From: Symbiodinium natans
Lineage: Eukaryota > Sar > Dinophyceae > Suessiales > Symbiodiniaceae
NCBI GenBank assembly: GCA_905221605.1
Contig: CAJNDS010000422.1
Span: forward strand, 62,001-126,000
DNA: 64,000 nt
Direction: 5' to 3'
Below the pieces are notes generated by a model. That model was not told the DNA's origin, made no database searches, and was given only the letters and a program-made list of their open reading frames with translations. Positions within the stretch are counted from its first letter, which is position 1, and every line of letters begins with the position of its first letter. Positions 8,618-55,760 of this stretch are shown here, piece after piece. Position numbers and translations under genes: made by a program.

Positions 8618-11139
8618 CGGGAGGCGCTCGGTGATGAGGGGGATTTGTCCCTTTTCAGCTCCGTGGGATCCGTGAGCCGAGGCGCATGCGGCACTCGAAT
8701 ACAGCCGGCATGTCGGTGACAGTCGAGGACTTCGTGCGGATGGATGAGACCATGGACTACAGGAGCAGCAAGTCCTTGGTTGCGAAGGGCTTTTTGGACA
8801 GCTTCTGGTGCAAGCGCGTGGTTCTCCTGATGCGCGCCATGCATCCCTGGGTCACCATGCAGTTCGTGAGCTTGTTCAGATCCCACGTCGTCGCCAGGCA
8901 AGAACCCGGGGATGTGTTTTTGTTGTCCTAGTTTCCCTACCCGAAAAGGCTTCTCGGCTTTGCGAGTTGCTTTTCAAAGGGTTTCGGGGGCCAACCGAGG
9001 TCCGAGCCTCCCTGATCATTCTGAAGCTGGTGTCTGCCGCCGCCGCCAACGCGCTCTTCTTCACCAGCTCGGCGGCCTCTCGGCGCGTTTGGGGCTCATG
9101 TTCCACCTATCATTGGGTGCCCCTACTACCCCCCTCTATACCACCCCTCCCATAATGAAGGCTATTTCTCGAAAACTACGCCCAATTAAGGTCATTTAAG
9201 GGAGCCCCAAAAAGAGAAAAGAGCACAACAATGGCAAGAAATCCTGCAGTTAGAGTGAGCTGAAGCCTTGAGCAGGTGGACAGACCACCCACAATCGTGC
9301 CACAACTGCCCTCGCATTTTACAGAAGCCTTTCGAAATCCACTCGCCACATCCAGCAAGATTCACAGCTCCGGCGCGCACATTCGCAGCGGACCCTAAGA
9401 CCCAGGTTGCGGCCGACGCGGACATGGACTGTGCGCCGCCAGAGACTCTCGGCGAGCGCCTGCTGCGCGCAGCCATCGTTGGCATCTTCTCCGCGTGCAT
9501 GGGCGACTTGCACTCGGGTTGCACCAAAAAAAATGGGGTTCAGGATGGTGGTTGATGAGGGTCAGCATGAGGGTCCCTGTTTCGGGCGCTAAAACACGAA
9601 TCGGGACACCGGAGTTTGAAACCGCGGGCCTTCAATAGATCTCAAAGAGATAACCGAAGGAGATTTCTTCTCTGATCTTGGGGCGACTTCAAAGCATTTC
9701 AAAGCGCTCTGAGGATCATCGTGCTGCTGGCCATGGTGCAGCGCCGGCAGGCCCCAAACGTAGCCCTTACCCAAGCAGACTGGCAATACTCCAGCGGAAA
9801 ACCCCCCATAACTTCAAGTCCATGGATGGGAAGAGACAGGTAATGATCCGGCGATGGACGGAAGAGGCCAAAGAGAGGCAGCTCAGGAGAACCGGGAACA
9901 AAGCCTCCACCATTGTAGCCGAGGCCGCTGCTGCAAACCGGCCCAAGCCCTAATTTCTGCGTTCTCTGAAACCGTCACAGGCGGTACCGGTTATTTTGGG
10001 TGGCGGGATTGGGATGGTTCTGAAACGATGAAGACATGAGTGGGGTTCGGTGAGACTACCAGTGCGAATCCAGTGTGGGAGCATCAGATGGTTGTATTCA
10101 GAGTGCATGAATACTAGAGAGGCTTCAAGGCTCAGGCCACAAAACCCGAATCACAGAAACCCAGACAAAAATTGCATCCCGCCCCTGTGCCTTTCCTGTG
10201 GCCTTTAGGGCCTTCATGTTCTGGGGCCCGATTTGCTTTCGTGTCATCCTGTGAATGAAGGAGCTGGCGCCGCCGACGTCACATCTTCTGGCTGATCTGG
10301 CTTCTCTTTTGGGAGGGTCGTTGGGTTCCAGGAATTCTAGGACACCCCCTGGCACCCTTCTCCCTGCTAGGGGTTGTCGAAAACCCACAAGACGGTGCTC
10401 CTTGTTTGGTAGGTGGGAGGACTGCGAGGTTCCTCTTCTTTAAGCTGGGGCTCTACCCGAGGTTTCTCAACGTTGGCATGTCGATTCTGTACGTATTTGG
10501 ATTCCTGGCCAACGTGAGCCAAGCAGATGGGGACAAATGGATCGAAAGAGCCCTCGCCGCGATAAAATTGTGGCCTCCTTTGCCTTGCAAGGGCTTCTCT
10601 GGGATTTTCCGAAAACTTCAGCTGTCCTCCCCGGATCCTTTGCAGTAGCTTTGACTATCTGACCATCGTTCACCTTTGTTTCCTGCAGCTGAGGCACCGG
10701 CATCAGTCTGTTGCAGGATCTCGTCCTGAAGCCGCTCTGCCTGGTGGCTGGGCTGGGATGAAAGATTGAGAAGAGCGTGCGAGATCCAGAAAGATACAGA
10801 TGTGTCGGGGTTGAGGTTGATCTAGCTAATGTAGCTGTAGCCCCGCGCGCCACCGAGGCTCTGTTGTACGCCACGGTCGCCAGCATGGTCCTGTGCTGCA
10901 GCCCAAGCGTCGGGGAAAAGATCTTGAACCAGTGGGCTCTCAACAACAAAGAGTCCGGGAACGAGGATCTGCAGAACGTTCGGCAAAACGACAACCAGTC
11001 CGGGAACGAGGATCTGCAGAACGACTGCAGCCAGCTCGGGAGCGAAGACTTCGAGGCAACTCGGCGCCCCACTCGAAACGAATCTCAAGATGAGAGTCGA
11101 AACACATTGCAGAGTGTTGACTTTTTCAGGCTCCTTTGA
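1676..11139 (+). CDS. Large intron-rich gene: kelch / GPS / multi-pass membrane protein
   Basis: Gene-level entry joining three modules described separately (kelch blades, GPS motif, membrane part). All are on the + strand, in the expected order for a cell-surface receptor or polycystin-1-like protein, and no stop-to-start break with a recognisable new N terminus lies between them. Coding stretches are short islands of 40-170 bp separated by introns rich in homopolymers and telomere-like repeats. A final islet near 10,840-11,139 encodes a short hydrophobic stretch and then two near-copies of a motif around SGNEDLQN before a stop at 11,137-11,139. The first exon, signal peptide and exact splice sites were not found. 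That this is one gene rather than two adjacent genes is inference. The likely site is the plasma or another surface membrane. Confidence 0.5.
4780..5545 (+). CDS. Ser/Thr-rich linker and juxta-GPS region of the kelch-GPS gene
   Basis: In frame after the kelch blades, 4785-4925 encodes a run dominated by Thr and Ser, typical of an O-glycosylated extracellular stalk. It continues into a moderately hydrophilic helix-like stretch at about 4925-5100 (LDTSEEELARQLVAALAN ... LATTQTLALQL). A further islet at 5200-5330 encodes NVTVQSASASVEVPPDVV, and 5400-5520 encodes a small-residue-rich hydrophobic stretch. This resembles the GAIN-type region that precedes GPS motifs, but the match is by position and character only. 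A C12 tract at 5379-5390 sits in an intron. Confidence 0.45.
5628..5965 (+). CDS. GPS (G-protein-coupled-receptor proteolysis site) motif split by an intron
   Basis: The exon at about 5637-5775 encodes SITFRGPDGQRI ... GSRCAFWDEE and the exon at about 5888-5965 encodes GTWSSEGLRAV ... LLCQTSHLTA. Together they give the spaced pattern C-x-F-W ... W-S-x-x-G ... C-x-T-x-H-L-T that defines the GPS motif of adhesion receptors and polycystin-1. Autoproteolysis there is between the L and T of HLT, leaving two non-covalently held chains. The catalytic H-L-T triad is present. One of the usual four cysteines, after the G, is replaced here by Leu. The motif places everything upstream outside the cell and predicts a membrane segment downstream. 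Confidence 0.7.
6120..6300 (+). CDS. Post-GPS exon of the kelch-GPS membrane gene
   Basis: The frame at about 6120-6235 encodes EVFGAVLETFLLVLRCSTAA followed by QVFSAEGLQNLSKG. A hydrophobic helix with Cys directly after a GPS motif fits the first membrane-proximal helix of this protein class. A short run of GTGGGATTC-like repeats follows at 6242-6280, probably intronic. The exon limits are not resolved. Confidence 0.4.
7415..10755 (+). CDS. Multi-pass membrane module of the kelch-GPS gene (several exons)
   Basis: Hydrophobic exon islets follow each other on the + strand: 7415-7520 (KALFVCLLVLLYALRLDRK, a membrane helix followed by basic residues), about 7985-8200 (acidic then LGRQVRRSSLCCQASWQLLR), 8700-8920 (FLDSFWCKRVVLLMRAMHPW ... 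QFVSLF), 9000-9090 (VRASLIILKLVSAAAANALFF), 9420-9510 (ETLGERLLRAAIVGIFSACM), 9830-9950 (charged, IRRWTEEAKERQLRR), 10440-10580 (FFKLGLYPRFLNVGMSILY) and about 10697-10755 (TGISLLQDLVLKPLCLVAG). Helix-loop order resembles the membrane part of polycystin-1-like proteins, but I cannot assign a channel or receptor family firmly. Introns between these carry the telomere-like array and a G34 tract. Confidence 0.45.
7522..7763. repeat. Interstitial telomere-type array (CCCTAAA)n, about 240 bp
   Basis: Near-perfect CCCTAAA heptamers with occasional CCCCTAAA and CCCCTAA variants. It begins immediately after a putative exon encoding a membrane helix and so appears to sit in an intron. TTTAGGG is the telomere repeat reported for dinoflagellates and plants. 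Being flanked by coding DNA on both sides, this block is interstitial and not a chromosome end. Confidence 0.9.
8584..8617. repeat. G34 homopolymer
   Basis: Thirty-four consecutive G residues on the + strand, probably inside an intron of the kelch-GPS gene. The length may be unreliable in any assembly. Confidence 0.85.
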
Positions 11140-12379
11140 GGGCTCTCTGAGGCCTGAAACCTCCCAAACTGTCCAATCCCCCGCCCCTCCCCTGAGCTTG
11201 GGACTGAGGGCGGTCCAACAGCAAAGTATCATCAATTGTCAACTTGAGTTTTAATTGATGCCAATACCCTTTCTGCTGCAGCTAAGTAAGAGCGCACAGC
11301 GTGCCTCCTCTGGGCCAAGTGGGTGGTCCCCTTTGCGTTCGGGGGTTCGGGGTCGTCTGCGTCAGGCCCGGCCGGGCCCTCACGCTCTTCGGCCAGCTTG
11401 TGAGGGAGATGACACAATATATGCGGTGTATATCGACTCGGTGTGAAGAGTTGTTCTTCGAGCAATCCCCGAAATGACGATTTAAGAAGGCTTACGGCCT
11501 TGTGTACAGTTGGAGTGGTCCCATGATGATCTAAGAAGGCTGACGGCCGAGATGATCCGAAGAGGGCTGCTGTTTCTTTTTGCACATCCTCCAACTTTGG
11601 AGGTATTAGACCTTCGATTTGTCTCAGCACTCCACTGGGTGGAACGGCAGTGCCGTCGGCATGGAACAGGTTCCAAGCCTTGGGACAAAAAGGGTCGCGC
11701 GAGCACATTGCCATTCCTTAGGGGGCCCAGTGGCATCCTGGTGAGGATTCTTTTATCACTTCTCTGCAATTGCTCTCTCAGGGCAGCAGCATCGTCTTCG
11801 TCTCCGGAACCCTAAACTGCCAAAACCTCAAACGTAAACCTCCGCTCTTTGCCTCTTTTTGCCTCTTTGGCACGCCCTCCTTCAAAGCTTCAAAATGCCC
11901 TGAGCTCTCCAAAAAAAAAAACACCGCCAACCCCTCTGCACCTGGCACCTCCCGACCTGGATTCTAAGCACCCATCACGGTCTATTCATTGACACAAGGG
12001 GGGAGGAGTTGTAGGGGGTGCCCGTTTTCGACCCCTAAATAAAGCGACACCCCAAACAGGGTATCCCTATTTCGGAACCCACCAAATACAGCTTCGGGGG
12101 TGCACCATGAAGACAAAGAGGCCCCTCTGCTTGGAGGTCCATGGTACTATCCCAATTCTGACTGTACTTCGGGGCTTATGTGGGTTATCACTACACTTTC
12201 AAATGCGTGTCTAAGTACCCTGGACCTCAGGTGGTTCTGGCCGATGCCTGGGGCATCCCTCGGGGTCCCGAGAGGAAGGGCCTCCTTCGTCATGTTCATA
12301 CACCGACGACTTAGAGATAAATCCATTGCAATAGATTTTATGCTAATCGTACTGTTTCTATCTACACAAGAATGATCAG
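11140..12379. other. Spacer with no supported gene
   Basis: A 160-codon minus-strand frame (11,232-11,714) starts with ATG but shows no recognisable domain, and all supported genes are on the other strand. Remaining sequence has short homopolymers and no clear exon. Confidence 0.35.
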
Positions 12380-15174: not shown

Positions 15175-16484
15175 ATGTTTGCCACGTTTGCCACGCTCCT
15201 GGCGTTGCTTTCCGAAGGAGCACCCGCACCTGTCGAGGACTTGCACCTCCTCCAGCGACGGGCAGCGAAGCTGAGCACAGAGGTCGTGGTAGAGGCCGTG
15301 CCCAAAGGCCAGACAAAGAGGGCACGGAGAGAGCTTCGCGCTTTTTTTGGGCTTCTGAGCATGACAGGAACTTGGGTTCGCGTCTAGTGACATGTCGGGA
15401 ACTGTAGGGAAATGTAGCTGTAGCTTGACACAACACCCCTGAGGCCTGGTTGCGGCTGACCAGCTCGACGTGAAAGGTGTCGAGGCAGCTCATGAAGAGG
15501 CCACACATGTGGCCACGCCATGCCGAAGCAAAGAGAAGAAAGAGAATCAGTCGCAGTGCATCGTTGCAACCGTCCTCGATGTTTTTGACGTGCTGCAGAG
15601 CACCGCAGACCTGTCGCCCTTGAACGCTGAAGTGGACAAGGCCTTGACTGCTTTGGTGTCTATGGTGCTGGTGCCTCAGCCAGCTGAGGTAGTCACTGCC
15701 GTGCTGGAGGATCCGCAAGTGCGAGCGATCAAGAAGCCTTTGTGGCACTTCCTGTCCGAGGCGGAGTACGAGATGGAAAGCTGGTGGGCTCGCAGATTTC
15801 TGGCAGAGCATGCGACCATGGAGGGCACCAGCGCCTTCTGGTATAGAGAGAACTACAAGGAGCTCACTGCGCTGGAGCTTGCACATCTGCACAAAGTTGG
15901 GCATCGGCCGAGTGCGGGGGACCACGTCGTGTTTGTCGGTGGCGGCCCATTGCCTTTCAGCGCCATCGAGTACATGCTCCAGAGCGGTGCAAAGGTTACC
16001 GTCGTTGAGCACAACCCTTGGGCTGTGCAACTCTCGACGGTCTTGATCAAGCAGCTGGGGTTGGAGAATGTTGCGGTGGAGTATGCCGCAGGTGAGCGCT
16101 TCGACTACGCAGGCGCCACGCACTTGATCGTTGCCGCACTTGTGCGACATGACGACGCGGTCATTCGCAGGGCGATGGACACGGCTGACTTGCGCATGGT
16201 TGGGGTGAGGCCGGCTGGGGCTGGGGGGGGGGGGGATGGAGAAGATGCTGACGGACTAGTTCGGGGCTTAAGCAAAAAGTGAAGACAAATCCATTGAAGC
16301 GAATCACATCGAATGTGCCTCCTGTCCCCGAAGGAGCGCCGACGGCCTGCGGTCTCTCTTGTACGCACCATTGGACGGCTCGCTTGACCAACTGCACCTA
16401 CAGCCCACTGGGGGCAGCGCCGTGAATGCGCGCGTGATAAACACCCTTCTGACTTTTGAGCCTGCTCACGCCAAACAGTTTTGA
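15175..16484 (+). CDS. Nicotianamine-synthase-like protein (SAM-dependent aminopropyl/aminobutanoyl transferase family)
   Basis: Nicotianamine synthases condense aminocarboxypropyl units of S-adenosylmethionine into a metal chelator. The body exon (frame open to 16,282, real coding from about 15,525) shows the family order: LWHFLSEAEYEMESWWARRF (family: LCG-x-AE-x-LE-x-HF), then FWYRENYKELTALE (family: FPYYxNYxxLxxLE), then VVFVGGGPLPFSAIEYM (family: AFVGSGPLPLTS, the SAM site), then THLIVAALVRHDD (family: VFLAALVGMDK). An intron of about 130 bp (about 16,205-16,334, borders ambiguous: GT...AGG or GC...AG) leads to a last exon encoding SADGLRSLLYAPLDGSLDQL and NARVINTLLTFE, matching the family C terminus. 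The stop is at 16,482-16,484. A first exon starting with ATG at 15,175 is plausible but unproven. A homopolymer G9 follows the body exon in the intron. Confidence 0.7.
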
Positions 16485-16847
16485 TGCATGACTTGGTTGT
16501 TGCTAGGAAAAGGCCGTGCACATGTCTGGCCGCGCTCCCCTTACGCAAAGTCGCAGGAATTAGCTTAGGTCCTTCATCGGGGATCAATGAGGGGTGGTGA
16601 CTCTTACATAGCCTTTATACATCCCAGCTCCCTCGCAGAGAATGTGCTGTGAGGATCAACGCAGGGTGCGGTAGCGGCCGCCAGTTGCTAGGCGCAAGTC
16701 GAAAAAAGTTACCATCAGCTCGTCAGTGCTGGTTTCGCAGGTAAAGGAGAGGTTTTCAGCATGTAAAGGCAGAAGCTCCACAAGCCCCTGGATATTAACT
16801 GCGCTGCACCAGGGGCATTTTTCCGTGGCCCAAGCGAGCATGGGAGC
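16485..16847. promoter_or_regulatory. Spacer between nicotianamine-synthase-like gene and CRT-like copy 1
   Basis: About 360 bp. Just upstream of the start codon at 16,848 the sequence GTGGCCCAAG (16,825-16,834) matches the spliced-leader 3' end GGCTCAAG with one mismatch. It may be a decayed relict, but the evidence is weak. No TATA-type element is claimed. Confidence 0.25.
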
Positions 16848-19800
16848 ATGGCACCTCATTTGCCCATGGAGTCGTCGGACTCTGACATCTCGGATGAAGG
16901 GAAGTCTCGCTGGAAGGGGAAGCTTCAGAGGTTTCTGGTCCCCATCGTGTTCATCACGTATGTCATCACCAAAGCCTTGGACCGGGTTTTCATCTACCGG
17001 GTACAAAAGTCGATGGCCCATTACAGCACTATTCTCATGAGCATCTACTGGCCTCCGGGCATCTGCTTGGCATGCTTCTCCTTTCTATTTCTCCTGAATG
17101 GATCCAAGAGCCTCCTTGGAATGAGGGGAAAAGATGAGATGAAGGCATTTCAGCCACTGGGCCTCGGGTGGTTTTCGCCCATCAGCGAGTTTGCTTCAGC
17201 ACAGGGTCGTGTGCCGCAGGCATGGTTTGCCCTGATCGGGTTTCTGGACCAGATCAACGCCACCTTCTCGGCTCCCCCATCGGTCTACATCCCAGTGGTC
17301 TTGCAGACGCCCTTGAATAACCTGGTGGTTTTTTGGGTGATGCTCATCTCCCTCATCTACCTGAAGATGTCCTTTAGAACGGTCCACTACGCAGGCGTGC
17401 TTCTCATCCTCTGCTCCTGCATTGTGGGTGAGCTGGTTGAGCTCCAGGGGCCACCCGATATGGTCTGCAATGGGCTCGACACTGCCCAAGAAATTTTCCA
17501 AGATGACAGCTTGCCCATCTCCCAAACAGCGAGATGGGCCGTAGGCAATGCCACTGAGAAGTGTGTGCGAGGTTTGCCGCCCTACAAGGGCTCCGATGGC
17601 CGGATCATCTACGTCCCCTTCGGAACCATCGCCTCGATGTATCTGCTTTTCATTGGCACCGTGATCCCCTATGCCTTCGTGAACGTCTACAAGCAGAAGA
17701 AGCTGAAGCAACTTCTACTGTTTAATTAGGGGACCCTATATAATCCCTCAAAGGGGAAAAACAAGGGATATAGGGAACCTCATTCCCTCATTCCATCTCA
17801 TTCCCGACGAACAGTTAAGGCAGGTGAACCTGGATGTGGCTTGGGCCTTTTTCTGGCAGAGCGCTTGGCAGGTTTTGTGGGGCCTCGTCTTCATCCCGGC
17901 CTGCTGGATCCCCTGGCCCACGCCCAGTGGCGCCAACGAGGCCTCCTTCTCCACCTTCGGCCAGGACTTAGCCGACTCCTGGACCTGCTTCATGGGCCAA
18001 AACCCGAATCCAAAGGTCACCACCTGCTCTGCCGAACCCGCCTGGGCTTGGTTTCTTTGCCATAGTTGGGTAACATCTTACATCTTTAAGGGCACTTAAA
18101 ACCCAACAATATATCATCCCATCCATGAACTAGGTTTAGCATCTACCTGCTCTTCAACGTCTTCTTCAACCTCTGCCTCATGTGGCTCATCAAGCGCATG
18201 TCCAGCACCTGGGCCGCCGTCGGCGCGATCCTCTGTGGGAACCTGGGCGGCTTCTTCAGCCAGTTTGAGCTTTTCGGGGGCAACTTTGTCATGGTTGGGG
18301 AACATTTTGCACTGTTTAAGGGTACTTAAACCCAACAAGAAACAGACATTTCAGTTCTTAAGGGTAACTTAAGCCCAATAAGGAATAGACATCTAGATTT
18401 TTAAAAGCTCTCCCAACAATGAGCTAGGCAAGTCGGCACAGCCGCTCTCCATGGAGCAGTGGATGGCGCTCATCCTCTCTACCATCGCCATGTGGGTCTA
18501 CAACATCGAGGAGCGCCCAGATGTGCCCAGATGTTGTGGTGCCGTTTTTTTGTTTTCCGGGGGCCTCCCGTATGCTTCTTTGTACCTACGTATACACTTG
18601 CGTATACTTGTGTTGACCTGCCAGAGTCAACGAGCAAGCCAGTAGTGTCAAAGGCCGCGCAAGCGTGATGCGCCTAGTGACACTGTTGTGGCTTGACCCC
18701 CTGTGGTGGCTGTTCCAGAAGGAGTTGCGCCTTCCTCTTGGTGCTGGCACCCTGATGCCGGCAATGTCACCGGGCCCGCTGATCTTGCCTGGCCCCTCGT
18801 GTGCTGCAGCATGTTATCTGGGCAGTCTTCCAAGTCTCCCGCGCTTCCACATCCGTAGAAAACATTCCAAAAGTTGGGTTTTAAAAACCCTATTCCAAAA
18901 GTTGTTAAACTGTTATGTGCTTGTCTTCGTTGCGGCTCAAAGGGCTGCCCGTTGTCGCAGCCGTGGCCTTTTGGCGCCTTTGCATCATGCCCTTTCCTCG
19001 ACCTTTCCGTGTCTTTGTCTTTTGACTTTCTGTGTTGTCTTTTGTACTTTTAGCCCCACGGCAGTGGCTACATTTGCTACATGCGCGACTTTGCCGTTGC
19101 AGTGGTTCCTGTCCCTTCGTGTTTGCTTTGCAAAATTTGACGGTTTCCTTTGCGCTCAAATGTTGGCTGCCTCCACTGGTGCTTTGATGGCAGCTCGTAG
19201 CAAATTGGCGAGCGCCCGGGACAACTCGAACCTCTGTCTTGAGTGCGACACTCGCAACATACAGGCCAACGCCCGCTACAAATCGCATCACGGCACACAC
19301 AATCCAGTAACAGACGCAACCGATCGATGCGCTGTCTTCGGACATCACAACACGTGCCCCGTGCCCGTAACCAATCGTCCCCCGGGACTTGTGTGTGACA
19401 TCGCAAAATACACAAACCAATGCCCGCATGAAATCGCACGCCCGGTCTTGTGTGCGATATCATACACAACCGACTGCCCGCCTCTATGGAGTTGTACCCC
19501 ATCCTTTGTGCAGTGCCCGAATCGTACCCCCTGTCTAGTGTGGTGTTGTCATGTCGCACAAGCCAGTGCCCGTCTTTTGTGTTGCAACATCACACCATAC
19601 ACAACCTATAGTGCCTTTGAAAAATCGTACCTCCCTCTCTTGCTTGCGATGTCACAACAAGCCCGTGCTTCGCGACATCACAGCCGTCAGTTTGTCGGTC
19701 CGTCGTCAAGTCCTCCGTTCACCGTGCCAACCCATGTTTCGAGGTCATGGATGGCTCCTTTTGCGTAGTCTATAGGTACTATCCCGCTGATTTCCGCCTG

Positions 19801-20877
19801 CAGGTGCGACGGGTAACTCGCACTGCAGTCCCTCCTCCATGGAAAGCTGCGACGTGCAGACCAAATGGCCCAAACTGTCTTCTGATCCGGCTCAAAGCTT
19901 GTGACGTTTTTGCCTCGCTTTCTACGTGCACGTTTTCCGACTGAGGCCTTCGTTCTCGGATTGGCGCCCTCTTGTTTCAATACTGAGGTTTTCGGACGCA
20001 CGCGTGTCATGGCCAAAGCCACCGCATCGCTCATCTGCACCAAGTGACCTAACTTTTCTTCTCCTCCGCTTGCGTTTTGCGTTCGCACGTTCGGAGCTTG
20101 TGGCGTTTGCGCACTGAGCCACTTTGCTTTCTTGTTGCACGGTTTCCGACTGACGCCTCCGTTTTTCCGATTGGCCCCTTTTTGTTTTCAGGTTGGGGCA
20201 TTTGGGCGCGAATGTTGGACAGTGACTCTTTGCTTTTCTCTCGCTCTCGGCGGGCATCTGTGGTAATTTGAGTCTCTACTTGTTTCATTGACTCGGCCCC
20301 TGCGTTTTCCCACTCAGTCAGGGCTCTGCGTTTTCTGAATCTGCCGTGTGCGTTTTCTGACTCTGTCCTTCCGCCGTTTTTCTGATTGGAGCCTTGCGGT
20401 TTTCTGCCCACGTTTCTCTGACTCAGCCTTCACCCAACGGCCTGCCAGCCACAAGCCACCCAAAACCCTCAGCCATGAATGCATCATAAGCCCGAACCTC
20501 TAAGCCTGAACCCAAGAAGCCTGGAGCTGCAAGCCCTATGCCGCATATGCCGCATATGCCCTAAACCCAAACAAGTCACAGGTGAGTTTGGTTGAGGTTG
20601 TCCGATCCAAAAACGATGAGAGTTCGAGTCTCGAGTGCTGTCACTTCTTGTGAAGCGGCACAAGCGTTTTGTCCCACATCATGCGGTCCGCTTATCATAA
20701 CCGTTGGCTGACAACAACTGTGAGGATGAAATGGACGCGAATGGCCGATCTGTCTACGGCGAGGTAGCACGGGGCGACCACCGCTACGATACAAAGGGGG
20801 ACATGGGCCTCGACCCTGACTCGGACGAGTTCCATTCCGACAACGAGCCGAATGCAGAGGACCACACGACTCTGTGA
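16848..20877 (+). CDS. CRT-like transporter, copy 1 (five exons)
   Basis: A predicted 490-residue polytopic carrier of the drug/metabolite-transporter superfamily, most like the chloroquine-resistance-transporter (CRT) group, which moves amino acids, peptides or thiols across vacuolar or plastid membranes. Exons 16848-17707, 17820-18050, 18134-18279, 18428-18510 and 20725-20877 join in frame, checked residue by residue against the neighbouring paralog. Hydrophobic helices include FLVPIVFITYVITKALD, ICLACFSFLFLL and VVFWVMLISLIYL. The motif FSAPPS-x-YIPVVLQTPLNN is shared with copy 2. The last exon encodes an acidic hydrophilic tail ending DHTTL. Introns are 112, 83, 148 and 2214 bp, with donors GC, GT, GC and GA. 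If exon 4 is read through instead, translation stops at 18,645. Family assignment is by overall pattern. Confidence 0.65.
17708..17819 (+). other. Intron 1 of CRT-like copy 1, GC-AG, with inverted repeat
   Basis: 112 bp intron absent from copy 2. It contains CCCTATATAATCCCT facing AGGGATATAGGG, an imperfect hairpin. Exon/intron borders share GCA on both sides (AAGCA / AAGGCA). It starts GCAACTT, as does intron 3. Confidence 0.7.
18051..18133 (+). other. Intron 2 of CRT-like copy 1, GT-AG, introner-like
   Basis: 83 bp intron absent from copy 2. GGTTT occurs at both junctions. The internal GTTGGGT ... ACCCAAC and TTTAAG ... CTTAAA inverted repeats form a hairpin. The core is clearly related in sequence to the core of intron 3. 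Confidence 0.75.
18280..18427 (+). other. Intron 3 of CRT-like copy 1, GC-AG, introner-like
   Basis: 148 bp intron absent from copy 2. GGCAA occurs at both junctions. It contains GTTGGGGAACAT, then GTTTAAG ... CTTAAAC and CCCAACAA, paralleling intron 2. A second partial copy (TTAAGGGTAACTTAAGCCCAA) follows. Both introns end in ATGA(A/G)CTAG. Confidence 0.75.
19205..19695. repeat. Degenerate minisatellite, about 50-60 bp period, in CRT copy 1 intron 4
   Basis: Recurring blocks of the type GTGCCCG ... AATCGTACCCC ... CTTGTGTG ... ACATCGCA ... ACACAACC, six or more imperfect copies. The long open frame across it is a by-product of the repeat. Confidence 0.65.
19925..20430. repeat. Degenerate T-rich minisatellite in CRT copy 1 intron 4
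   Basis: Repeated GCGTTTTCTGACTC-like and TTTTCCGACTGA-like blocks at irregular 25-60 bp spacing, decayed. Together with the preceding array it makes up much of the 2.2 kb intron. Confidence 0.55.
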
Positions 20878-21185
20878 GAGCCCGTGGGTTTCCTAGCATT
20901 TGTCCTGTAGTATTTGTTTCTGCCCAGATGGGATAGCGAGCTCGGACTTGCACGAGGGGTGGCGTTGATTGATTTGCAACGTAGCGACACCACTGTGTCT
21001 CAGGAAAATATTGTTTGTTGCCGTGCTGTGTCTGTTGAGCGCCTGCTCAGCAATCCCCAGTTTGAGTGTGGTTGGCTCTGTTGGCTCAAGGTTGTTTACC
21101 GGTGCGTTCTGTGGTGTTGGACCGTTAGACAGTGTTTGTGGCAAGCGTTTTGTTTTGGAATGATGCCTGGCTGGGCCAGTTTTCA
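20878..21185 (+). repeat. 3' flank of CRT-like copy 1, duplicated after copy 2
   Basis: The sequence from the terminal exon through about 21,185 recurs at about 23,377-23,655 behind copy 2, with scattered substitutions. Shared blocks include GAGAGCCCGTGGGTTTCC, GCCCAGATGGGATAGCGAGC and GTTGTTTACCGGTGCG. It is probably the shared 3' untranslated region, so the duplicated unit includes gene plus 3' flank. TTGGCTCAAG (21,081-21,090) is present here only. Confidence 0.75.
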
Positions 21186-21274
21186 GCTGATCAGGCGCGC
21201 AGGTTGCCAGCTTCAAGGGAGATCTTCTAAGCTAGACATCACACAACACACACACACACCCTCGGATTTCCGCA

Positions 21275-23376
21275 ATGGTCCGCTCAGCACGTGAGCTTAT
21301 AGACTCGGATTCTGAGATCGCCAACGAATCCACTGAAAGGCCGAGCACAGACGACAAAGGTGGCGGAAATGCAAGGAAGCTTGCAATGGCTGTGTTCGTT
21401 GTCTATTTGGTCACAAGGGGCCTCGCTACAGTCTTAATCTACAGAGTCTCGAAAGCCATGGCACAGTACACCACAATTCTCATGAGCATCTACTGGCCCC
21501 TGGGCATCGTTTTTTGGGCCTTCACGCTTTGCGCCTTGCGAAACTCAAGGCTTTTCAGTTCGAAGCCTGTCGGGCTCAGCTGGTTCTCTCCGTGGAGTGA
21601 GAAGGCCTCGGCGCAGGGGCCTGTGCCCCAGCACTGGTTTGTGCTGATCGCCTTCTGCAACCAACTCTGTGCCACCTTCTCAGCGCCGCCGACTCCTTTC
21701 ATTCCCGTGGTGCTGCAAACACCTCTTGCCAATCTTGTGGCTTTGTGGACGGCCATCATCTCCTGCATCTTCTTGAAGACACGTTTCACGATGGTTCACT
21801 ATGCAGGCATCTCTCTGATTTTGTATTCCTGTGTGGTGTCAGTACTGGTGGAGTTGCAGGGGCCAGCAGAGGCGGTCTGTCAAGGCCTCGACATTGCTGC
21901 GGGGACCTTGGACCAGCTCACACACTCCAACCTGATCAGCTCAGAAGCTGCGTGGAGCGTCAGCAACGCCACCGAGCACTGCGTCATCGGCCTGCCCCCT
22001 TACAAGGACACCACGGGCCAGATCCTGAAAATTCCACTTCACATCCTTGTCTCCATGTACACCTTCTACACCTTGTCCCAGGTGCCTTTCGCTTTCGTGA
22101 ACGTCTACAAGCAGAAGAAGCTGAAGCAAGTGAACCTGGACGTAGCCTGGGCCTTCTGGTGGCAGTGTGCATGGCAGGTTTTGTGGGGCCTGGTCTTCAT
22201 CCCGGCCTGCTGGATCCCCTGGCCCACGCCCAGTGGCCACAACGAGGCCTCCTTCTCCACCTTCGGCCGGGACTTAGCCGACTCCTGGACCTGCTTCATG
22301 GGCCGCAACCCGCATCCAGAGATCACCTCCTGCTCAGCAGAGCCGGTCTACGGCTGGTTCGCGATCTACTGCTTCTTCAACGTCTCCTGCAACTTGGCCC
22401 TCACCTGGCTGATCAAGCAGCTCTCAAGCACCTGGGCATCCATCGGCTCTATCCTCTGCGGAAATCTCGGGGGCTTCTTCAGCCAGTTCTCCGCCTTGGG
22501 CGGGAAGTCGGCGCAGACGGTGACATTGGAGCAGTGGATGGCGCTGATTCTCTCCTCCGTCGCCATGTGGATCTACAACGTCCAGGATGAACGGGACGTC
22601 AACGGCAAGAGCGTTTACGGCCAACAAGGACTGTTCTGAGCCGTTGAAGTCTTTGTAAAGAGAGAGGTGTCGCTAATGGGTGGGCGTCCCAGGGTAGCTT
22701 GGGGTGGCCCCACGTTTCTTCAAGGCAATTCTCATGTTGCTGTGTCCCGTTGAAGGTGCAGTCGGGGGATTGCTGTTTTGAGCTTCCAGTTCTGGGAGGG
22801 GCGGGGGTGCCTCCTTTCGAGCGTGACTTCGGGATGGCAACCTAGGATAAGGGGGGCCCTTAAAAGGGAACCCTTCTTGACCCTCTTCTGGCTCACTTAA
22901 ACAGGGGCCTCATGCCTTATGCAGACGGTCTGTATCCCCAAGAGTTCCCCTAATCCTATCCACAGAAGGGGGAGCCCCCAGTTTATCCAGTCTCCTGGGA
23001 CAGTAGGTCATTTTTTTGCCGCACAGCGCAATTTCTTCTTCTGGTTGTTGCGACAAGAAAGGGGGAGACGTTCCCAAGGTGATATGGCTTTGAATCAAAG
23101 GGGTTTAGGGAATTTCACTTAAAGCATTCAACACCACCAAGACTGGCAAATAGCAAAAGAGCAACAAGGAGTTAGTACTCCACCCTTATGGCAAAAGCAC
23201 CATGAACGCAACCAGTTTCAGTTTAGCCGCAGCTTCGTGTGCTTGATGATCCTGACTTGTGCTCAGGAAGAGGTGACCATCGCTACGATACAAAGGGCCC
23301 GATGGGCCTCGAGCCTGACTCGGACGGGTTCCAGTCCGACGACGAGCCGAATGCAGAGGACCACACGACTCTGTGA
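21275..23376 (+). CDS. CRT-like transporter, copy 2 (two exons)
   Basis: A predicted 484-residue paralog of the preceding gene. Exon 1 (21275-22619) is a single open stretch carrying about ten hydrophobic segments (for example MAVFVVYLVTRGLATVLIY, LANLVALWTAIISCIFL, ISLILYSCVVSVLVEL) and the conserved block PTPFIPVVLQTPLANL. A GC-AG intron of 647 bp (22620-23266) is predicted because joining it restores YGRGDHRYDTKG and an acidic tail ending in DHTTL, exactly as in copy 1. Without splicing the frame ends at 22,639 with GQQGLF, a 454-residue form. This intron position is uninterrupted in copy 1, and the four introns of copy 1 are absent here. The substrate is unknown. Confidence 0.7.
22620..23266 (+). 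other. Predicted 647 bp GC-AG intron specific to CRT-like copy 2
   Basis: The donor ACG|GCCAAC and acceptor CTCAG|GAAGAG restore the tail seen in copy 1. It contains GGGGGGCCCTTAAAAGGGAACCC, partly self-complementary. An in-frame stop at 22,637-22,639 lies 18 bp inside, so retention gives a truncated tail. Confidence 0.55.
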
Positions 23377-23781
23377 GAGCCCGTGGGTTTCCTAGCATTT
23401 GTCCTGTAGAATTTGTTTCTGCCCAGATGGGATAGCGAGCTTGGACTTGCACGAGGGGTGGCTTTGATTGATTCAGAACGTAGCGACACCATTGTGTCTC
23501 AGGAAAATATTGTTTGCTGCCGGGCTGTGTTCCCAAGCTTAAGTGTGGTGGGATCACGGTTGTTTACCGGTGCGTCCTGTGATGTTGGTAATCTGTTAGG
23601 CATGATTTCTGGCAAGCGTCTTGTGTTGGAATGATTGGCTGGGGCCAGGTTTCAGCTCGGGTTCGGCCTGGAACTTGTAAGCCTTGTCAGCATCAGCATG
23701 TCCACCAAAATCACGAAAATTCCCTGTTCTCGACCTGCTGCTAGAGCTTTTTCCCATTGCTGGCTGAGAATTGCGTCGAAG

Positions 23782-23818: not shown

Positions 23819-25304
23819 ATGCCTGTCTTATCTCATGGCTCGCTGTTAACCTTCCTGATAGAGCACGTTGCTGCCAGGTCCTTCTACCACTCGGCAACTC
23901 TGCCTCTTGCACTGCTTACGGGAGCTTTGGCCCTTTGCACCCTTCCCAGCTGGGGCGCGTGGCCCAAGGGCTTCTCGCGCTTCGTGGTGATCTACCTCAG
24001 TGCCTGGACGCTTTGCGTGGCTTCGGATTGGCTGCAAGGACCGTATGTCTATGCACTCTATGAGGCCTATGGCTTCAGCCCCCACCAGATTGCGCAGCTT
24101 TTTCTGGCTGGCTTTGGAGCTGCGATGTTCTGCAGCAGCTTCGTTGGTGGACTAGCTGATCGCTATGGCCGCAAGCGCGGCTGCATTGCATACTGCTTGC
24201 TGTGCATTGTGTCCTGTGCTACGAAGCACTGGAAGAGCTACTGGATCCTCATGGTCGGACGAATCACCGGAGGCTTCGCTCAGTCTTTGCTCTTCTCCTG
24301 CTTCGAGTGCTGGATGGTCTCGGAGCACGAGGTGCGCAACCAATTCTGCTCCAGCCTCCTTCCCAGCATGTTTCTTAGGGATTCTTGGGAAGAGTTTCCA
24401 ACTTTGGGCACTGTCATCCCTAAGAAACAGCTAAGAATATGATCTTTTGCTGGGGTTCCCAGCTCAGTACAGGTTTGGAATGAAGTTCAGCCTCATGTAC
24501 CTGGTGGCGATCTGCTCGGGCTTCGTGGCGCAGTGCGGCGCGGACTCCGCCAGGTTTGCACCCCTAAGCGAGGATTCCTTGTTCCATCTTGGAGGCAACC
24601 TGGTTCCTTTTGACATGGCCGCCTGTGTTCTCGTGGTTGCCCTGGTGATCATCAGCATGCTCTGGGAGGAGAATTTCGGGCACACGGCACAAGTTGAGGG
24701 GGTGCCCCTCTGGGAGGGCCTCATCAGCATTTGTCGTAGCAAGCCGCTGCTGAAACTGGGTGTGGCGACTGCCTGCTTCGAAAGTGCCATGTACTCCTTC
24801 GTCTTTAACTGGACGCCAGCATTGGAGTCTGAAGATGAGATGCCTCCCCATGGCGTCGCCTTCGCTTTGATGATGATGGCGTGCATGTGTGGCGCCTCCG
24901 TTTCGACCCTGATCTCCGACAGGGTCTCTGCGCTTCGACGGCTGCAGCTCGTTGCTGCCATGGGATTTGGAGCCTTCGCCGTGGCTGTTGCAGCCCTAAG
25001 GCGAGGAGGAGGCCACGTCTGCTTCTGCAGCTTCCTCCTCTTCGAGTTCTGTGTGGGCATCTACTTCCCGGCAGCAGGCACTTTGAAGAGCAAGTTGGTT
25101 CCAGAGCGGATCCGGGTCACCGTGTACAACATGTACAGGGTGCCAATGAACGCTGCGGTGGTCAGCCTGCTCCTCACGAACTTGAGCACGAGCCTTTGCT
25201 TCAGGGTTTGCTGCGCTCTCATGGGCATCCTCTTCTTGGCAACGCTTGGTCTCCTCCCCGACGACCCAGAGTCGGTGCCGGAAGACTCCGGCAAGGCGAA
25301 GTGA
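23819..25304 (+). CDS. MFSD5 / molybdate-anion-transporter-like MFS carrier
   Basis: Major-facilitator carrier of the MFSD5 (MOT2, molybdate-anion transporter) type, which imports molybdate in algae. Exon 1 (23819-24365) contains the family signature DWLQGPYVYALYEAYGFS, then the GLADRYGRKRG loop after helix 2, and the TKHWKSYWILMVGRITGGFA block, all diagnostic. Exon 2 (24463-25304) carries the C-terminal helices, for example FSLMYLVAICSGFVA, ACVLVVALVIISML and the late helix VGIYFPAAGTLKSK. A 97 bp GC-AG intron (24366-24462) joins them in frame. The ATG at 23,819 is chosen because it is the first ATG after a relict spliced leader and gives a normal MFS N terminus. About 462 residues, near the family norm. 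Confidence 0.75.
24366..24462 (+). other. Introner-like GC-AG intron in the MFSD5-like gene
   Basis: 97 bp. TTCCCAGC is present at both ends (24,360-24,367 and 24,456-24,463), an 8 bp direct repeat straddling the junctions. Inside, TGTTTCTTAGGGAT (24,369-24,382) is perfectly complementary to ATCCCTAAGAAACA (24,416-24,429). Direct repeats outside inverted repeats are the structure expected of a small DNA transposon acting as an intron. Confidence 0.8.
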
Positions 25305-46620: not shown

Positions 46621-46839
46621 ATGGACAGCAGACGCGACCTTGCTGACGAAAGTGCTGAAAGTGACAACGAAGGTTTTGCTGTGGTGCAAGCTCCCGCTGT
46701 GCACCGCTGGGAACGCTTGATCCGTTTACTCTATCGGATTAGGCGACTGCAAAGGATTTGGGGCCTCCTGGGCCAGCATCTCCAGACTTTCGTCCAAAGC
46801 AGCGAGTTCCGCCGTCGGCTGGCTAATCGTTTGCGATGA
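46621..46839 (+). CDS. Short frame upstream of Gag, overlapping it by ATGA
   Basis: 72 codons from ATG at 46,621. The product is acidic at its N terminus (DLADESAESDNEGF) then basic and amphipathic (RLIRLLYRIRRLQRIWGLL). Its stop TGA overlaps the Gag start in ATGA at 46,836-46,839, so translation of Gag could depend on termination-reinitiation, or a frameshift could fuse it as a Gag N terminus. Neither is proven. Confidence 0.4.
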   Translation: MDSRRDLADESAESDNEGFAVVQAPAVHRWERLIRLLYRIRRLQRIWGLLGQHLQTFVQSSEFRRRLANRLR

Positions 46840-49800
46840 GCAGCCAGGAACAGCAACAGGCACAAGTGACTGCAGCGCAAGTGATGCAGGAGCTTGTGAA
46901 TCTGAGAAACGAACTCACAAGGCAACGCGAAGAGAATGATCGGCTAAGGGCCGAGCAAAGCACAGCACTTGAGCGAGTGCGGCAAGAGAGTGCAGCTCAA
47001 GTTGCGGAAGTGCGAGCACAAGCGCATACGGCAGTGCAGCAGGCGACGGCTCAGATGGGCACGATGCCACAGTTGGTGAGCGACATGGTCAAGTCGAACA
47101 AGGAACTGGTTGAGGCCATGGCAAAGAAAGGAGGACCAAACGAGAAGCTCTGTTTGGTCGACACAAAGGGCCTGGGAAAGCCGACGACCTTCTCAGGTGA
47201 GAGTGAACAGTTCCTACCATGGAGGCATCGAATGTCGAGCTACGTTTGTTCGATCCACCATGATCTGCAAGAAGTTCTAGAGTGGCTCGAAGAGAGGGAG
47301 AAGCCATTCTCCTCGGAGGAGTTGGACACAGCCTTTGGAGAAAAGGCGTTGGAGGCGGATCGAGTTCCCAGACTGCAAGAAAAGTCGAGGGAGCTCGCGA
47401 ACGCGCTCCAAATGGTTACCTCGAAGGAACCATTTACGATCGTGTGCAATTGCCAGAACAACGGGTTCGAGGCATGGAGACGCCTTACGAGGCGATACGA
47501 TCCTGCGACTGCAAGCAGGAAGCGCACGATGTTGAGAGCGATTATATCGCCCCAGAAGCAGAAGCTGGAGAATCTCCCTCAGGCCATCGAAGAATGGGCC
47601 GACGCTGTGCGCACTTACGAGAAGCGCAAGGACAGCACAGGGCGACGAACGACCCTGGCTGATGAGATAAAGATGGCAGCACTGGAGGCAATGTTGCCAC
47701 AGGAGCTGGAGTCTCACATCCAGTTGAACCAGAGCCGGTTCTCCACGTACGACGACGTGCTCGACGAGGTGACTCGCTTCATCGAGTACAAGACAGGAAA
47801 GAGTCTGAAGGTGATTTCTGCAGCCGCAGCCAGTGCGGCGAGCAAGGATGATCCTATGGACCTGTCGTATGTGGAGAAAGGCAAAGGAAAAGGAGCAAGC
47901 AAGGTCGTGTGCCACAACTGCGGCAGGAGCGGACACTATGCCCGCGACTGCTGGAGCAATGGAGGCAAAGGTTCGCAGCAGCAACGGGGCTCACCCAAAG
48001 GTCCAGGGCAACAAGGAGGAAAACCAAGCAGCAAAGGAGGAAGAGGGAGCCCCAAAGGAGGAAAGGACAAAGGAAAAGGTAAGAAAGGAAAAGGCAAAAA
48101 GGGAAAAGGCAAGAAAGGTGGTAAGAACAAGAAACACGTAGGAAACATAGAAGAAGGAGGAGAGAACACAGGAGAAGGAAACCAGGACGAGAACTGGCAG
48201 GAAGGAGAAGAGGATGAAGGCTGGGAAGACGGAGACTGGGGAGAAACCTGGGAGGACGGTTGGGAGGAAGCAGAAACAAACAACCTCTACGTGGGAGCGT
48301 TAGAAAGAGAGAGCCCGAAGAGAGAGAAAGAGAAGAAGGAGAAAGAGTCGAAGCCAGACCCCGGCAGTCGTGGCTCAAGTAGGGAAGAGGGCTCCGGCCC
48401 GACCGTGCTTGGGGCCATGGCGCCAAAGAACCCGAAAAGGAAGGTTCCTCCAAAGGAGGAAAAAGACGAGGATGAAAAGGAGCTGGAAGCTCTGGAAGAG
48501 CAAATGGACAGAGCAAGGGGTCAGTTCCAAGACCTGAAGGAAAAGGTGGAACTTGCGAGGAGACGTCGCCAGGAAAGACTTCTTCAGGAAGCGGAAGAGC
48601 TGGCAGAAGCCAGGAGACGTTCCCGCGGCGAGGTGCCAGGGCAGTCCAGCTTCGGAGCGTTTTCGTCTTCGTCGCGAGGACCTCCGGAGAGAGTGCGCGA
48701 GCCAAAGGCCGGAAAGAAAGAGGAGAAGAAGGAGGTGAGGTCTAAGGCTTTGGACACGGCACCCTGGAAGCGCGTTTCGCGCTACCGGGAGCCACCAGTG
48801 CCTGAGCCCAGGACCCCTCCAAAGGCGAAGCAAGAAAGGCCGAGAACACCGCCGAAGTCACCACCGCCTTCCAGGACCAAAAGTCCGCTTCTCAAGCCGA
48901 AGGTAGAGCCAAAGAGAACAGAGCCAAAGTCACCACCTTCGAAGCCAAAGGTAGAGCCGAAGAGAACAGAACCAAAGTCACCACCTTCGAAGCCTCCACC
49001 TAGAAGTGAAGAAGTGCAGCCAAGAAGCGAAGAGGTGGAGAGACAACTTGCTACCACAGCGCCGAAGTGGGGAGCCTCAAGGAGCCAAAGACCTGTGGCG
49101 AAGGCAAAGCCAAAGCTTCTAAGGAGTCCGGCGTCTTGGGCAGGAATGCGCTTCAGGGAACGTGTGGCCCACCAAGATGCCATACGAGACAAGAAGCCCA
49201 GAGGCACCGTCGGGGAGTCCTTACTGAAGAAGCAAGGCGAGGCCTGCTCCACCTGCGTGTCGAGGCGACTGAAGTTCAGGAGCAAAGCGTCCCTTCTGCT
49301 GAAGAAGAGGATGAAAGAGTACAAGGCAGCAGCTGCAAAAGCAGCGGGCTCCCACTACGCCAGGAAAGTTTTCGAAAGAGAAAAGCTTGTGAGGGCCGAC
49401 AGGCCCAGCAAGGCTGAACTGAGGAGCGCAAAGGTAGCCGAGAAGGTGAAGCAAAGGGAGGAAGAAGCCGCTGGTGAAGAAGAAGAAGAAGACAAGTTTT
49501 CCTTGGAGCCGGAGAGCTCCGAGGACGAAAGCGACTTCGAGGATGACCCTCCAAGCGAGGGGCCCGAGGAGCCCAAGAAGGAAGAAAAGAAGAAGCCACC
49601 AAAGCAGGAAGAAGGAACCGAAGGAGCAACCGCGATCACGGCAAGCACCTCGAGCAGCATGCAGAGGATGCTAGCGTCGGGTCTTATGGAGACCAACCGT
49701 GCGAACCTCGCGGTCTTGGACCAGAGGATCGCGACAAAGAAAGAGAAGCTCGAGGGACGCGGCAGTGACCCAGAGCTGGAAGCCGAGATCGCGAGCCTGG

Positions 49801-51059: not shown

Positions 51060-51182
51060 ACGGTGTAAGGCCCAACGGGCTTAGCGTTTCACCCCTAGAC
51101 GAAGAGGCTGAGATGGTTGAGGAAGCGGCCAAAAGGAAAGCCGCCGGGAAGGCAACGCTCAAGGTGTTAGCCAAGGAAGACA

Positions 51183-51186
<4 letters not shown>

Positions 51187-51237
<51 letters not shown>
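51187..51237. repeat. (GA)n microsatellite inside the element
   Basis: About 25 GA dinucleotides between the protease and integrase frames. Its length changes phase: coding character passes from frame 3 (to 51,059) to frame 2 (about 51,060-51,300) to frame 1 (from 51,292). Confidence 0.9.
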
Positions 51238-51244
<7 letters not shown>

Positions 51245-51291
51245 AGAAAGAGAGGAAAACGACACAACAAGGAGCAAGCGCAAGCATACAA

Positions 51292-55715: not shown

Positions 55716-55760
55716 GACTGAAAGCCTGCTTCTTAAAGCCGGATCAGCACAGTCTGCCCA

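Follow-up and report, generated by a model that had tools for sequence, protein, structure and literature searches.

Two CRT-like genes with no common intron position

A stretch of 64,000 nucleotides from the dinoflagellate Symbiodinium natans (contig C422, CAJNDS010000422.1, positions 62001-126000; called here the window, in whose coordinates the genes are given) carries two neighbouring genes for CRT-like transporters, copy 1 and copy 2, both on the + strand. Copy 1 has four introns, copy 2 has one, and none of the five positions coincides between the copies, as the initial annotation had already pointed out. Introns 1 to 3 of copy 1 look like introners, i.e. transposon-derived introns in which a 4-bp target-site duplication supplies the donor for the predicted splicing. 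Intron gain in copy 1 after the duplication is well supported, because these three introns are members of interspersed families that show target-site duplications, and because their sites are empty in copy 2 as well as in a third paralog, on contig C69. Taking the account as a whole, we consider it likely that the two genes are old tandem paralogs that diverged by introner gain and by one intron loss, and that conversion acted on them later.

Joining the five exons of copy 1 yields a single open frame of 1473 nt coding for 490 amino acids (aa). The borders set earlier for its four introns, after 17707, 18050, 18279 and 18510, were reproduced to the base. Against PF08627 (CRT-like, gathering score 26.9), spliced copy 1 reaches 90.2 bits, copy 2 81.3 and part of the C69 paralog 79.1. 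Read alone, 16842-17714 scores 37.9 bits, and the best stretch of spliced copy 1, 266-437, spans junctions 1 to 3. The assignment to the CRT-like family thus holds for both copies, which lie above the cut-off and are predicted transporters with transport as their putative function. Comparison by sequence with solved structures at E 0.001 gave no match, and relatives of the copy-2 protein sought in viral contigs and in bacterial and archaeal genome contigs gave none confirmed by tblastn. A spliced-leader relict upstream of either copy, which would be a sign of retroposition, was also sought: the window holds 5 matches for 2.94 expected, which is not significant.

The gene models and associated features are the following.

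16848..17707, + strand: copy 1 exon 1, an open frame homologous to copy 2
17708..17819, + strand: copy 1 intron 1, GC-AG, 112 nt; putative introner of the second family, duplication GCAA/GCAG
17820..18050, + strand: copy 1 exon 2, holding the putative conversion core 17887-18025
18051..18133, + strand: copy 1 intron 2, GT-AG, 83 nt; putative introner, duplication GTTT, a short member of the intron-3 family
18134..18279, + strand: copy 1 exon 3, homologous to copy 2
18280..18427, + strand: copy 1 intron 3, GC-AG, 148 nt; putative introner, duplication GCAA, inverted-repeat ends
18428..18510, + strand: copy 1 exon 4, homologous to copy 2
18511..20724, + strand: copy 1 intron 4, GA-AG, 2214 nt, with GAGGA at either end
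20725..20877, + strand: copy 1 exon 5 and stop; the second putative conversion tract begins at about 20803
20878..21188, + strand: 3' flank of copy 1, resembling 23377-23657
21275..22628, + strand: copy 2 exon 1, equal in length to copy 1 across the junction
22629..23266, + strand: copy 2 intron, GA-AG, probably older than the copy-1 introns
22843..22961, strand not assigned: nested, interspersed repeat (about 119 bp) within the copy-2 intron; matching pieces occur elsewhere
23267..23376, + strand: final exon of copy 2 with the stop; homologous in frame to exon 5 of copy 1 and to the last exon of C69

All five acceptors read AG/G (the slash marking the junction), and the donors are GC, GT, GC and GA in copy 1 and GA in copy 2; GC and GA donors are given as 25-74% in Symbiodiniaceae (PMC11453091). 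The single intron proposed earlier for copy 2 is retained but its donor, formerly set after 22619, is better placed after 22628 (CAAG/GACTG, GA-AG), with the acceptor before 23267 unchanged. This donor is preferred because the protein then equals copy 1 in length across the junction (VYGQQGRGDH, against VYGEVARGDH in copy 1), whereas a donor after 22619 would cost copy 2 9 nt relative to copy 1. It was picked with the copy-1 alignment already in view.

Interspersed families of the copy-1 introns

The assembly searched comprises 759,417,921 bases in 2543 contigs; each genome search for an intron family scored 40 candidates, and the copy counts are lower bounds. Introns 2 and 3 are 84% identical over 56 nt (E 3e-10) despite their different sites. 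Intron 3 has at least 44 matching pieces at 40 or more genomic places, its own included (944 candidates). These pieces tend to share its limits: 28 of the 44 begin at query base 3-7, base 5 being the first past the 4-nt duplication, 27 extend to base 148, the last, and 16 have both limits. For intron 2 there are at least 40 genomic matches, again with its own (592 candidates), and it matches 27 of the 29 other intron-3-family loci. Both introns diverge from the family consensus by 15%. The core pattern of their element had 0 matches in viral contigs.

An exact 4-nt duplication borders the element at 19 of 30 loci of this family, the window's own included, against 10 of 870 mismatched pairs, in which left and right flanks were drawn from different loci. 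The proportion is 18 of 27 once the window's own locus and one from each of two identical-flank pairs are removed. In copy 1 the duplications are exact for intron 2 (GTTT) and for intron 3 (GCAA). Donor letters (G followed by C, T or A) are present at 20 of the 30 loci and AG/G at 18. Compared in fixed register, the 16-nt ends of intron 3 are complementary at 12 positions (26 and 28 of 100000 shuffles as good, in two runs) and those of intron 2 at 10 (385 and 399 of 100000); the family consensus ends are complementary at 12 of 16.

When the flanks are joined without the element, a frame stays open across 150 nt at 16 of the 30 loci, while with the element left in, over a correspondingly longer stretch, none of the 30 is open; as a control, 150-nt windows taken at these loci are open in 503 of 1378 cases (36.5%). 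The joined frame is open at 12 of the 15 loci that combine a duplication, a GT, GC or GA donor and AG, and at 4 of the 15 others. The loci with the full signature thus behave like introns, and the remainder may be intergenic or decayed. Four joined frames were run against Pfam: Ion_trans (L023) and SCP2 (L029) lie above cut-off, both domains ending before the junction, and Ank_5 (L031) and Cyclophil_like (L007) cross it below threshold. Near the gene pair, the GT-AG intron 24370-24472 of a neighbouring MFS_5-type transporter gene has GTTT at both borders and matches L029 871-923 with its bases 47-99; it may be another introner.

Intron 1 leads to a different family. Its core has at least 42 matching pieces at 40 places or more, its own included (102 candidates). 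The ends of this family are CTTACTGTTGG...CCAACAGTAAG, and the consensus ends CTTACTGTTGGTTAGTAGG...CCTACTAACCAACAGTAAG are complementary at 24 of 24 positions. Both ends are recognisable at 13 of the 29 other loci; five of these have an exact 4-nt duplication and four a duplication with 3 of 4 letters, against one exact case in 156 mismatched pairs. At the corresponding site copy 2 reads GCAA and C69 GCAG. On this evidence, intron 1 is a predicted, diverged member of a second introner family. Together, introns 1 to 3 have interspersed copies and target-site duplications (for intron 1, copies of the core only and an imperfect duplication), and terminal inverted repeats are seen in the consensus of both families and in introns 2 and 3 themselves. 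Their removal leaves the frame intact in comparison with copy 2 and C69.

The copy-2 intron does not resemble them. Searched as a 647-nt query (22620-23266), it gave 40 other matching pieces, all within its bases 224-354, among the best 40 of 1442 candidates; neither a family spanning both ends nor inverted-repeat ends were found, the ends being complementary at 4 of 16 positions, as in shuffles. The border repeats GAGGA of intron 4 and AGGA of the copy-2 intron would mostly be a product of the AG/G splice consensus. A window-wide scan for duplications combined with inverted-repeat ends gave 1 and 4 hits per strand (0-1 in ten random sequences); it misses introns 1 to 3 and was discarded.

Several observations weigh against the interpretation of the copy-1 introns as introners, first of all for intron 1. 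It differs from its family consensus at 30 of 102 aligned positions (29%), partly through poor alignment of the 5' end, and its duplication is imperfect (GCAA left, GCAG right). Its own ends are complementary at 4 of 16 positions in fixed register, no better than shuffles, and share the inverted repeat ACTGTT only with an offset (gap). Intron 4 carries no introner hallmark: its ends are complementary at 2 of 16 positions, as in shuffles, and the 91 other matching pieces listed all stop short of its first 225 and last 274 bases. A less strict local comparison of ends gives introns 1 to 4 scores of 6, 8, 11 and 8 and the copy-2 intron a score of 6; as intron 4 and the copy-2 intron score as high as introns 2 and 1, this comparison does not discriminate. 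At the level of the intron-3 family, 11 of the 30 loci have no exact duplication, and some copies are probably not introns, the joined flanks being open in just 16 of 30 overall. Finally, every junction was placed by homology and splice-site letters. Within intron 4, bases 848-1063 match many closely spaced copies on contig C2272.

A third paralog, probable conversion tracts and a proposed order of events

Searching the entire assembly with the copy-2 protein yields 7 matches, which fall into three genes: copy 1, copy 2 and a paralog on the minus strand of C69. The last was read on the reverse complement of C69:1-16000, its 5' end and some small exons being unmapped. Two weaker CRT-like Pfam places, on C243 and C1729 (L003, L004), have no tblastn match to either copy and were rejected as outgroups. 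The C69 paralog has 7 introns according to tblastn blocks at E 0.01 or better, or 9 if two weak blocks (E 0.07-0.27) are counted, and one of its own introns, at copy-1 codon 430, shows GTCC at both borders. The sites of introns 1 to 3 lie uninterrupted in one 217-codon block of this gene (copy-1 codons 214-430), and that of intron 4 is likewise uninterrupted, in a separate block. Copy 2 is uninterrupted at all four. Each copy-1 intron is thus present in one of three genes, and the copy-2 intron in two of three if its C69 counterpart, described below, is counted. Several introns of the C69 paralog also carry telomere-like CCCTAAA runs beside exons, and the one at 10197-11391 of the reverse complement has GTGGGC at both borders; it is possibly another introner gain.

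The last C69 intron splits the K codon of VYAEK-RGDHRY. With RGDHRY as anchor, it falls in the same codon as the copy-2 intron, 1 nt apart (phase 2 against phase 1); in a MAFFT alignment, which introduces a one-residue gap in C69, the distance is 2 nt. For 9 introns over about 1450 nt, the chance of such closeness is about 2% within 1 nt and about 4% within 3 nt. Because the C69 intron sits within 1-2 nt of its position, the copy-2 intron is probably older and would have been lost from copy 1. The most economical history, provided that copy 2 and C69 are not sister genes, would have copy 1 gain four introns and lose one. The initial annotation had favoured gain after the duplication, possibly in both copies: this is well supported in copy 1 by the families, the duplications and the empty sites, but not in copy 2, where the nearby C69 intron speaks for an older origin.

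The direction of change also has its weak points. It rests on three close paralogs of one genome, unrooted, and with copy 2 and C69 as sisters, gain and loss could not be separated by parsimony alone. Moreover, the splice sites of the last C69 intron were chosen to preserve the frame, and this intron and that of copy 2 are one phase apart and have no detectable sequence in common. The same phase shift and lack of shared sequence, together with the absence of the intron from copy 1 and the missing root, would fit a gain on the copy-2 side as well, either in copy 2 alone or in an ancestor that it shared with C69. We regard such a gain as rather unlikely, although it is the most serious of the competing explanations. 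The third paralog matches the position within 1-2 nt; no introner family covering the copy-2 intron was found among the best 40 of 1442 candidates, only the nested repeat; and there is no duplication past AGGA, which is nearly given by the splice consensus. In addition, of the three possible pairs, the one formed by copy 2 and C69 is the most distant: over the 118 aa between the conversion tracts described below, identities number 81 for copy 1 and copy 2, 82 for copy 1 and C69, and 72 for copy 2 and C69.

It is improbable, in our view, that the interruption of copy 2 is no intron at all. The unspliced frame is indeed open to 22636 and would give a 454-aa protein, stopping in frame at 22637-22639 with an altered C-terminus. 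The exon downstream is kept in frame in the old C69 paralog, however, where it also lies behind an intron; the last exons of copy 2 and C69 are 76% identical over 25 aa.

The age of the duplication was approached through silent sites. In the N-terminal half these are at or close to saturation (pS 0.76 and 0.67 for the two parts of that half), with 56 of 128 degenerate codons identical between the copies. Other stretches differ sharply from this background: all 36 degenerate codons of 17887-18025 are identical (0 of 300 permutations as strong), as are 11 of 11 in 17676-17707 and 19 of 19 in 20803-20877. The region 18134-18510 is intermediate (29 of 46), and the 12 degenerate codons directly right of intron 1 show the background level (6 of 12). 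Segmentation into two states, at preset rates of 0.60 and 0.95, delimits one tract at 17676-17998 (tract A) and another from 20803. The 3' flank continues the second pattern, 20878-21188 and 23377-23657 being identical at 250 of 277 aligned positions (90%), with 38 further gap positions. The initial annotation had taken this flank as part of the duplication; the similarity itself is confirmed, but it is probably much younger than the duplication and fits gene conversion. It does not date the duplication, since the N-terminal silent sites are saturated while the tracts are near-identical. The near-identical blocks, flank included, probably reflect later gene conversion or a homogenisation of another kind.

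Outside the tracts copy 1 is about equally close to C69 and to copy 2 (in the 63 aa before tract A, it is identical to copy 2 at 26 and to C69 at 24), and the duplication of the pair therefore seems to be of roughly the same age as the split from C69. These values also speak against a recent tandem duplication including the 3' flank, in which selection would have made the N-terminus diverge fast. Such a scenario would explain the 90% identity of the flank, but in the N-terminal half silent sites too, and not replacement sites alone, are at or near saturation, and silent divergence is uneven where it would have to be uniform; we judge it very unlikely. From their divergence of 15-29% from their families, we infer that introns 1 to 3 arose after the duplication and predate the conversion core; this dating assumes that the source copies had not already diverged, and that introns and silent sites change alike. 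The idea that tract A spans intron 1, so that this intron postdates the conversion, was dropped: the codons right of it are at background, and the introners are diverged beyond the tract core.

The history that we favour would thus run as follows. Non-autonomous DNA elements (introners) of two families would have inserted into exons of copy 1 and given rise to introns 1, 2 and 3. Each insertion would have duplicated 4 bp, the left duplication furnishing a GT or GC donor and the element its own AG acceptor, and the new introns would be spliced out without change to the protein. The copy-2 intron would be older and shared with the C69 paralog, copy 1 having lost it precisely. Conversion would later have homogenised a stretch in exon 2 of copy 1, as well as the C-terminus with the 3' flank, and the pair would consequently look recently duplicated. 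The families, the duplications and the occupancy of the sites are read directly from sequence, whereas splicing, the direction and order of the events and the loss from copy 1 are inferred. Differential loss from an ancestor with all five introns, each copy shedding a different subset, for instance by cDNA-mediated conversion, appears least credible: the C69 paralog is intron-rich (7-9 introns), one loss is likely even in the history that we favour, and four losses would suffice if copy 2 and C69 were sisters, but these two are the most distant pair, eight exact events would be needed otherwise, and introns 1 to 3 bear the mark of insertion, namely interspersed families with target-site duplications.

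A more speculative idea, to which we give little weight, is that inserted introners locally obstruct gene conversion, introns 1 to 3 having arrived after the duplication and before the last conversion. It comes from the position of the cleanest tract, 17887-18025, wholly within exon 2 between introns 1 and 2. It depends on very few tract ends, and the 11 of 11 block left of intron 1 represents homogenised sequence on its far side. If true, an introner burst in one tandem copy could release it from concerted evolution and let paralogs diverge.

Elsewhere in the window, an open frame matching nicotianamine synthase (PF03059) lies just upstream of copy 1 at 15443-16279. Two very long open frames occupy 46827-51056 (1410 aa) and 51121-55473 (1451 aa), and two frames of equal length, 231 aa, lie at 55737-56429 and 62760-63452; the equal-length frames together with the long ones hint at another tandem repeat. 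A 15-mer near the spliced-leader end occurs at both 46531 and 55570, and overall such matches are no more frequent than by chance.

Relation to known introners

Dinoflagellate introners are already published, and the present case is a clear new example of a known process. In Symbiodinium microadriaticum, introners show 4-bp target-site duplications, their own 3' splice site, a 5' splice site derived from the duplication and terminal inverted repeats (Gozashti et al. 2022, PMC9860276). Introns 1 to 3 have the same layout as described there, with terminal inverted repeats as in both families here, the comparison being one of layout and not of sequence. Introner gain across dinoflagellates has been summarised (Roy et al. 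2023, Curr Biol, via PMC11453091); in comparison with what is reported through that source, the tandem pair and its third paralog offer built-in empty sites, with conversion tracts overlaid. In Amoebophrya, introner elements carry inverted repeats internally and have direct repeats of 3-5 nt spanning the borders between exon and intron (PMC7789003), an arrangement also found here. As presented in that article, they are defined on non-canonical splice letters, whereas introns 1 to 3 are GT-AG or GC-AG.

Separate intron gains in related, tandemly arrayed genes have likewise been described for the sPCP genes of Symbiodinium clades A and B (PMC4201569). The passages seen of that article give no mobile-element mechanism, whereas here element families accompany the introns. 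Per Suessiales isolate, introner elements are reported in 2.5-5.7% of tandem duplicates (PMC10522408), so that the present pair, which has them too, would belong to a minority by the figures of that survey. Introner elements are also described as more extensive in the genomes of free-living Effrenium than in lineages that live in symbiosis (PMC11114475). Among open-licence PubMed Central titles and abstract openings, we found none naming this gene pair or introners as conversion barriers, and no open-licence paper there was found to join the chloroquine resistance transporter with the dinoflagellate Symbiodinium.

The origin of new spliceosomal introns is an old question. Here, one gene would contain three mobile introns drawn from two families, two paralogs supply the empty sites, and the divergence values let an order be proposed, from an old duplication through introner insertion to conversion. 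More generally, intron differences between tandem copies can mix gain and loss, and a conserved 3' flank can make an old duplication appear young.

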